From contig NZ_JACSPS010000001.1 in the NCBI RefSeq assembly GCF_014837035.1, positions 490,374-554,373 of the forward strand: a stretch of DNA of 64,000 bases. Direction: 5' to 3'. Source of the stretch: Kaistella pullorum (GTDB taxonomy: Bacteria; Bacteroidota; Bacteroidia; Flavobacteriales; Weeksellaceae). Numbering within the stretch: the stretch's first letter is position 1; the number at the start of each line of letters is the position of its first letter. The notes beneath the pieces were generated by a model, which worked only from the letters and a program-made list of their open reading frames with translations, had not been told where the DNA came from and did no database searches. Shown here piece by piece: positions 28,509 to 29,337 of this stretch. The position numbers were made by a program, and so were the translations under genes.

Positions 28509-29276
28509 CTAGCCCGAAATTTTATCGCCAAGTCCGCGGATGTCTTTGCGGATTTCCTGGAACATGTTTTTAATCTCAGTGTCAGAGGAAGCGCCGGGTT
28601 TATAATCCTGCGGCAAAATACCGCGCACGTAACGCCAGATTTCCACGATTTCCTCTAACGCGATCTCGTAAGGCGGGTAAAACGGGTTGTCTGCCGCCAC
28701 CGTAATAGATTTTTCGTTAACCGCTACCAGCGTCTTGTAGGTAATGCCTTCCTGGGTGACGAAAATATAGCCTTTGTCGGTTTTTAAGTCCGAAATATTC
28801 TCCACATATTCTCCGATAACGTAGGAACCGTCAGCAAATGGCGGCATAGAATCTCCGTCAGCCAGAAACCCGCGGTACTTGCCATGTTGCAGAAAAGGCA
28901 GCTTCATCCTTTGCAGACTTTCCATATAACCGGGATCCATATATCCTTTCAGGTAGCCCATTGAAGCCTTTTGCGGCACGATTTCAATATAACCATCGCC
29001 TTCATCATCGATCAATACCGGCAGTACGATCCTGTTATCGGGCAGTTTCAGCATTCCTTCAAGCGGATATTTGCGGACATCCACCGTCAGCAGCAAATCT
29101 ATGCTTACATGGAAATATTTTGAAATCTGTATGAGAATATCATACGGCGGTTCTGAGCGGCCACTTTCGTACTTCGAATAACGGTCGCGGCTGATGCCAA
29201 GCTGTTCGGCAAAACCGTTTTGAGATAAATCTTTTTTACCTCTTAGAAACCTGATGTTATCTGAGAAAACTGACAT
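28509..29276 (-). CDS. LexA-like regulator (XRE-type HTH plus S24 peptidase domain)
   Basis: This 255-residue protein has an N-terminal Cro/CI-type HTH (GFAEQLGISRDRYSKYESGR, 21-40) and a C-terminal S24 domain with Ser143 (GDSM) and Lys181 (ITYKTLV), the dyad used for self-cleavage by LexA and CI. The linker region reads PQKASMGYLKGY (101-112), with no Ala-Gly pair. The ATG at 29274-29276 is chosen: the longer frame would run through the operator. It is divergent from dinB-dnaE, which it probably represses. Confidence 0.9.
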   Translation of the reverse strand: MSVFSDNIRFLRGKKDLSQNGFAEQLGISRDRYSKYESGRSEPPYDILIQISKYFHVSIDLLLTVDVRKYPLEGMLKLPDNRIVLPVLIDDEGDGYIEIVPQKASMGYLKGYMDPGYMESLQRMKLPFLQHGKYRGFLADGDSMPPFADGSYVIGEYVENISDLKTDKGYIFVTQEGITYKTLVAVNEKSITVAADNPFYPPYEIALEEIVEIWRYVRGILPQDYKPGASSDTEIKNMFQEIRKDIRGLGDKISG

Positions 29277-29277
29277 T

Positions 29278-29337
29278 GGGACAGATTGTATCTGCAAATA
29301 TAATGTTTTTGGGACAAATAGTATATACTTTTGTCCC
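29278..29337. promoter_or_regulatory. Divergent operator-promoter region of regulator and dinB-dnaE
   Basis: Two 18-base boxes start with GGGACA (29278-29295 and 29311-29328) and match at 14 of 18 positions. The second extends into a 27-bp near-palindrome (29311-29337) with arms GGGACAAA and TTTGTCCC around AGTATATACT. TAnnTTTG -7 elements lie in both directions: TACTTTTG at 29326-29333 (plus) and TATATTTG on the minus strand at 29296-29303. The dinB ATG directly follows GTCCC, and the regulator ATG directly follows GTCCCA on its own strand. These boxes are the obvious sites for the HTH/S24 protein. Confidence 0.75.

Follow-up and report, generated by a model that had tools for sequence, protein, structure and literature searches.

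How can a gap of 61 bp serve two genes that point away from each other, one encoding an S24-type regulator and the other a Y-family polymerase? The question arises from a locus of Kaistella pullorum on contig NZ_JACSPS010000001.1, within a stretch of 64,000 nucleotides that was analysed as a whole (the window). The earlier note on this DNA had proposed a shared operator between the S24 regulator and the divergent dinB(-dnaE), and a shared putative operator region with one box beside each promoter is indeed what we find. Our reading, to which we give a probability of about 0.8, is that the gap is a double operator of a damage-response divergon, run by the adjacent S24 repressor with RecA-stimulated release. 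The note's observation is partly confirmed and its interpretation partly supported: it judged the role of the gap well and misjudged the palindrome. The features are listed in window coordinates.

28509..29276 (-): S24-type repressor P0002, 255 aa, with an HTH_3 head and a LexA-like tail
28956..28961 (-): Met106-Gly107 codons, at the S24 scissile-bond position
29163..29192 (-): recognition-helix codons, residues 29-38 (SRDRYSKYES), coordinates computed from the reading frame
29277..29337: shared regulatory gap, 61 bp, between the regulator and dinB starts
29278..29292: box 1, GGGACAGATTGTATC, 15-bp putative operator just downstream of the regulator -7 element
29295..29302 (-): regulator -7 element TATATTTG, at the same position in 89/89 divergons
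29311..29325: box 2, GGGACAAATAGTATA, second putative operator directly upstream of the dinB -7 element
29311..29337: 27-bp near-palindrome, 8-bp arms with 11 bases between, specific to the window and judged coincidental
29326..29333 (+): dinB -7 element TACTTTTG, 4 nt ahead of the start codon
29338..30513 (+): dinB, Y-family polymerase P0001, 391 aa
30519..33578 (+): dnaE-type C-family polymerase P0003, 1019 aa, downstream of dinB

Layout of the divergon and sampling of its relatives

The regulator start was placed at 29276, and the upstream ATG of a 276-aa ORF was not taken as the start. Of 101 distinct dinB-linked regulator/gap pairs, 88 have a gap of 60-62 bp when it is measured from the start so placed. 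The 2.56-Mb genome of K. pullorum holds one relative of regulator P0002, and a genome search with PF00717 (E <= 0.001) returned the regulator as its single match, itself below the family cut-off, so that this search may miss other divergent S24 proteins. No phage genes were recognised by eye among the listed ORFs of at least 80 aa around 26-36 kb.

Across the genus, the regulator was found in 35 of 36 genomes (E <= 0.001) and a close relative of it in 34, the same 34 that hold a dinB ortholog; one genome (G012) is without the regulator and another (G023) has a distant match only. Added to these were 80 named loci (the best 80 of 585 relatives), a family sample of 148 genomes (71 with a match) and a phylum sample of 118 genomes (25 with a match). 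The collection comprises 208 regulator loci, repeats of the same place included, and 136 of them have a divergent dinB. From the 101 distinct regulator/gap pairs, those of other gap lengths (13) were excluded from the footprint, and trees were built from 89 rows with full-length dinB and regulator. A later set of 40 further loci and a plasmid locus (L246) contributed 20 distinct unseen dinB-linked regulators, 79-99% identical to the nearest earlier one; since five of them lie at 96-99%, not all are independent tests.

Downstream of dinB, a dnaE match was found in 76 of the 89 divergons. A Y-family polymerase gene followed by a DnaE-type gene is also the arrangement of the putative DnaE2B-PolY-RecA mutasome and the DnaE2-PolY pairing in Bacteroidetes (PMC12926913, PMC6511836); the portions of these papers drawn on here concern the complex, whereas our subject is the control region. 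The remaining 13 divergons (L010-L012, L014, L023, L025-L030, L033, L038) have no dnaE match behind dinB in the 241-1055 bp examined, and in L023 and L033 the stretch behind dinB seems, by eye, repetitive and non-coding. One genome (G016; L022, L032, L033) carries three full-length regulators of this type, two of them next to dinB remnants broken up by a stop codon or by split frames.

Boxes and promoter elements in the gap

The two GGGACA boxes named in the earlier note are real. GGGACAGATTGTATCTGC (29278-29295) and GGGACAAATAGTATATAC (29311-29328), 33 bp apart, are identical at 14 of 18 positions, and a direct match as good as this pair arose in 1 of 1000 dinucleotide shuffles of the gap. 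The -7 elements at 29326-29333 (+) and 29295-29302 (-) adjoin the boxes, as the note had said, and keep fixed positions in 89/89 divergons: the regulator element (CAAANNTA in plus-strand reading) begins at gap position 19, and TANNTTTG ends 4 or 5 nt upstream of dinB. Since only 4 nt separate the window's dinB -7 element from the start codon, the dinB mRNA probably has little or no leader. The window was also scanned for sigma-70 promoters, with a model that does not fit those of Bacteroidota.

Conservation across the 73 distinct gaps of 61 or 62 bp centres on a 15-bp palindrome, a half-degenerate second box and both -7 elements; comparison among the relatives establishes the positions of the boxes and their conservation. 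A 15-bp unit can be set in 46 registers; at gap positions 2-16 a mean of 6.44 of 7 pairs form over the 73 gaps, against 3.75 in the best of the remaining 45, and the general form of box 1 is G-x-x-A-[CT]-A-A-W-T-T-[GA]-T-x-x-C. A palindromic candidate operator at the regulator's own promoter is therefore found through this register in the 73 gaps, the window's own copy being degenerate and, with 4/7 pairs, the least palindromic among them. This is also the arrangement of the non-canonical LexA of Bacteroidetes, a repressor type established by Sanchez-Osuna et al., 2021 (PMC8565304), whose Elizabethkingia anophelis member is described there as binding TTAC-AAATT-GTAA in its own promoter. The second box follows at 33 bp in 56 of the 89 divergons and at 34 bp in 33. 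Its left half is kept, and its right half is degenerate next to the dinB -7 element. In 29/89 divergons the left half (7 nt) is identical to the box 1 half of its own locus, with 6.9 under shuffled pairing. In none of the eight GGG divergons is the right half-site the mirror of GGG, so that the dimer symmetry is imperfect.

Two loci (L013 and L020, in genomes G011 and G028) have gaps of 300 and 270 bp, in which the boxes and a -7-like element stay beside the regulator and the dinB start lies about 200 bp further on. In G002 (L019, L060, L088), about 6.6 kb separate regulator and dinB, and each has a copy of the box next to it (GTTATAAATTATAAC at 1392910 and 1399454); this layout is an insertion or duplication.

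A different operator had been favoured by the earlier note, namely a long GGGACA-N15-TGTCCC palindrome formed by the second box. The outer eight positions of this 27-bp element do pair, but the inner five pairs all fail, and an inverted-repeat arm of equal length arose in 28 of 1000 shuffles of the gap. Were the inverted repeat GGGACAAA-N11-TTTGTCCC the operator, one regulator bound there would shut both promoters, a reading that draws on its perfect 8-bp arms, on its single occurrence in the genome and on the right arm being a third GGGACAAA half-site turned towards box 2. However, that arm is explained by the TTTG of the dinB -7 element plus the TCCC preceding the start codon, and it is missing from the three closest relatives of the window, which read TTTTGCAGC (L003 and L005) or TTTTGCGTC (L004) at its site. 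Among 52 distinct 61-bp gaps, the window's own is the only one to form all eight outer pairs (four others reach seven), and none of the 21 gaps of 62 bp does so, the register shifted by one included. Outer-triplet matches, at 2/52, equal the mean of 2.08 in shuffled pairing, and the spacing exceeds that of the conserved box by 12 bp. A scan for GGGACA-N13..17-TGTCCC, which the note had suggested as a way to look for sites upstream of repair genes, returned a single occurrence in the whole genome. The 27-bp palindrome was rejected as an operator, and we regard it as a very improbable one; the conserved unit is the 15-bp box, two per gap.

The target set of the box appears to be equally compact. 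In the genome, GGGACARATWGTATM with up to 2 mismatches has 14 sites (the two boxes at 0 and 12 others at 2 mismatches), and the reversed pattern has 15 under the same limits. In the window's genome and its three closest relatives (G000, G022, G026 and G034), the related pattern matches exactly at the two boxes only, per genome; sites with one mismatch number one in G026 and two in G034, and the reversed pattern has none. A genus-wide consensus returned 58 sites in the 36 genomes and its reverse 47; 28 of the 58 lie beside the regulator or dinB (coordinates, counted by hand), which leaves 30. A wider regulon under the box motif was rejected as far as these patterns reach. Because exact matches are limited to the two boxes in four genomes, as comparison establishes, the visible target set is apparently this divergon alone, seen through box patterns that would miss weaker or differently spelled sites.

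With this arrangement, a repressor dimer on box 1 (29278-29292) would be expected to lie over the start of the regulator's own transcript, and another dimer on box 2 (29311-29325) would occupy the DNA immediately upstream of the dinB -7 element, so that both promoters would be held down by one protein. The 33-bp spacing of the boxes, about three helical turns, would allow dimer-dimer contact. Binding and repression, like the induction and cleavage discussed below, are what we infer from published relatives of the regulator.

The repressor and its predicted cleavage bond

The regulator matches PF01381 (HTH_3) with 52.0 bits (cut-off 23) and PF00717 with 20.7 bits, under the cut-off of 23.3. In its predicted structure, the head superposes on P22 c2 repressor-operator structures with an rmsd of 1.0 Å over 61 columns, and the tail on isolated LexA C-terminal domains at 2.7-3.5 Å (Foldseek; 35 matches at E <= 0.001, unrelated enzymes among them). 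Confidence in the model is modest (pLDDT 67.8) and, at residues 93-125, too low for a judgement on the Met-Gly site. The tail fold is shared with canonical LexA, as would be, by inference, autorepression and the control of an error-prone polymerase. In contrast, canonical LexA has a winged-helix head, which is absent from regulator P0002, and a CTGT-N8-ACAG box; here the head is of the phage-repressor type (HTH_3) and the box is unlike. The suggestion of a non-LexA SOS-like operator in Bacteroidota, made in the earlier note, stands in that the system lies outside canonical LexA; the regulator type, however, had already been published (PMC8565304).

As far as that paper is drawn on here, non-canonical LexA and the present system have in common an HTH_3 head with an S24 tail, a Ser-Lys pair, a palindromic operator in the own promoter, a divergent error-prone polymerase gene and dyad-N5-dyad boxes. 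Specific binding has been published for three relatives, with two motif classes and a diverged Elizabethkingia box, and paralogs with diverged boxes are known in Weeksellaceae (PMC8565304). Compared with the systems described in those parts of the paper, the present one differs in its GGGAC outer letters, asymmetric right halves, two boxes per gap, Met-Gly bond and apparent target set of one divergon. The GGGAC class and the two boxes per gap were not found in the open-licence papers searched, among which PMC8565304 may list some of the boxes in its Table S10 or Fig. 8A.

The conserved scissile bond of non-canonical LexA is given as Ala-Gly, and that of UmuD as Cys-Gly (PMC8565304). The regulator carries Met106-Gly107 instead of Ala-Gly, and we therefore class it as a Met-Gly variant within the homologous family and not as a plain member. 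Among the distinct regulators, the Ala forms belong to other families, together with one distant member of the family (L227); Met stands at P1 of the predicted bond in all 40 later loci, and a phage protein (L247) has Ala. Where the distance from P1 to the serine was read, it is 37 residues in 3/3 Met forms, and the Ala forms have either 37 or 38.

Of 167 distinct regulators, 141 have Met at P1 and 26 have Ala, and self-cleaving S24 regulators are reported to have Ala-Gly, or Cys-Gly in UmuD; on these grounds it could be argued that the repressor is not self-cleaved because its cleavage bond has become Met-Gly. The boxes would still be operators, but release would require another signal or protease in place of RecA-driven self-cleavage. 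What speaks against this is how well the catalytic residues are preserved: all 167 distinct regulators have Ser143 and Lys181, and 165 of them have Gly107, which argues that the cleavage reaction is probably retained despite Met-Gly. In addition, mitomycin C induces the Weeksellaceae regulator of Elizabethkingia anophelis along with the error-prone polymerase gene opposite it (PMC8565304); this regulator is likened to ours by family membership and through its published description. We therefore consider release without self-cleavage unlikely and keep to a predicted cut at the Met-Gly bond, since the catalytic pair is conserved. DNA damage would then be expected to cause RecA-stimulated self-cleavage at Met106-Gly107 and to inactivate the repressor, whose loss would free its own gene together with dinB-dnaE, the DnaE2-PolY mutasome of Bacteroidetes. 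The Met-Gly bond also raises the question of the width of the S24 cleavage pocket, which is relevant to inhibitors of LexA cleavage.

Recognition helix, operator letters and exchange between lineages

Helix 3 of the head comprises residues 30-38 in the model (pLDDT about 92). By profile match, regulator position 31 falls on residue 33 of P22 chain 1adr, if 5-64/7-66 align gap-free, and the matching P22 residue is one that we take to be a valine contacting thymine methyls. Asp31 of the regulator may be an acidic residue facing the cytosines opposite GG, and would in this way read the outer GG of each left half.

Three associations between this helix and the operator stand out among the 89 divergons: Asp31 with outer GG (8/8; others 0/81), Val31 with AT (19/19; others 3/70) and Val/Ile34 with T at the first outer letter (32/32; others 1/57). 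On a tree built from the repressor tail, independent pairs run in the same direction in 4/4 cases for Asp31, a mean of 6.8/7 for Val31 and 5.5/6 for Val/Ile34; for Asp31 alone, four pairs are too few for a sign test to reach 0.05. The changes to GGG number four on the repressor-tail tree (head left out) and five on the dinB tree. A single GGG clade on the tail tree was rejected (p-AU 0.0004), this and the other AU p-values being weakened because the groups were already known when the AU tests and quick trees were made. In the later loci, with the rules fixed beforehand, the counts were 2/2 for Asp31 and GG (others 0/18), 1/1 for Val31 and AT (others 0/19) and 9/9 for Val/Ile34 and T (others 0/11). 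Outside the 60-62-bp set, Val31 occurs with AT in 32/34 cases, mostly of one clade, and Val/Ile34 with T in 11/12 (others 2/40); one locus there (L231) has GG without Asp31, and two (L166, L170) have Val31 after Thr29 without AT. The link between helix and operator is thus a matter of comparison, from which the recognition-helix residues would predict the outer operator letters, beyond anything we found in print.

Other associations are weaker. Ser29 goes with C at position 5 in 27/27 divergons, but C is also present in 10/62 others; the later loci gave 3/3 against 6/17 and those outside the 60-62-bp set 16/33 against 5/19. Gly31 together with Ala34 goes with C in 21/26 (others 1/63), some pairs running in the opposite direction, and Glu31 with GT in 3/3 (others 1/86), all of one clade. 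A rule linking Tyr38 to C at the second outer letter (7/8; others 0/81) failed in the later loci, where it held in 2/8.

Parts of the divergon also appear to have moved. L008 has the dinB of the window's clade and the repressor and gap of the clade of L007: forcing its tail into the window's clade was rejected (p-AU 1.9e-6), as was forcing L007 and L008 together on dinB (p-AU 6.7e-6), and the DNA identity shifts at the gap/dinB junction. In L161, head and gap follow L155 (with an identical gap), whereas the tail is that of L238. By these comparisons, the helix with its operator, or the entire repressor, has been exchanged between lineages. A possible vehicle exists, since a 68.8-kb mobilizable (MOBB) plasmid of Chryseobacterium shandongense carries a complete divergon (L246, NZ_CP033916.1); this divergon has a 61-bp gap, a GTCAT box and dnaE, and its regulator is 99% identical to that of L098 in C. 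takakiae.

Because helix and operator can move together on DNA, linkage may contribute to their agreement. Taken to its end, this means that the agreement is inheritance or exchange as one DNA block and that the residues do not read the letters at all. The exchange seen in L161 and the rejection of a single GGG clade on the tail tree would fit this, as would the other residues that Asp31 heads have in common, such as Phe22, which are expected of a moved block; so would the failure of the Tyr38 rule and the violations in L231, L166 and L170. Yet the three main rules are free of exceptions in the 20 later regulators, some of them 79-84% identical to any earlier one, and the variable residues sit, in the model, on the helix which, in the fold of the P22 repressor, is turned towards DNA. 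Block movement as the whole explanation is, in our judgement, distinctly improbable, and we prefer residues that read letters in a unit that also moves.

In phage CI-type modules (lambda, 434, P22), paired operators lie between divergent promoters, and head and operators are exchanged as a block. The present system resembles them in both respects and differs in being a bacterial polymerase-controlling divergon, chromosomal or plasmid-borne. At odds only slightly better than even, we suggest that the repressor of PolY-DnaE in Weeksellaceae diversifies like phage immunity, by repeated unit-wise switching of head and operator, swaps between chromosome and plasmid and a residue-to-base code, together with a clade-wide Met-Gly bond that is new to the S24 papers searched. 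Residue-to-base rules, block exchange with a plasmid carrier and a Met-Gly clade were not found in the open-licence papers. For changing SOS targets, the published model, in the part of the source used here, is duplication followed by divergence (PMC8565304). Why SOS repressors change targets so frequently is an open question that this divergon addresses: about 90 natural repressor-operator pairs in one orthologous divergon include several separate switches at the same residues, so that the recognition code and the swap route are directly testable by single mutants.

Two further observations concern regulators that share a genome. The idea that co-resident divergons always differ in their operator letters held in 7/7 genomes (the lumped 'Chryseobacterium sp.' line left out) and was dropped because two divergons of one genome (G158; L273, L274) share the box 1 letters GCTATAATTTATAGC. 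In Chryseobacterium, two loci (L124, L131) represent a second regulator paralog class, with the helix SRVRYSKYEN and the box GATACAAAATATATC; the paralog lies directly upstream of an alkB-like gene, with an exonuclease III-like gene facing it (by eye).
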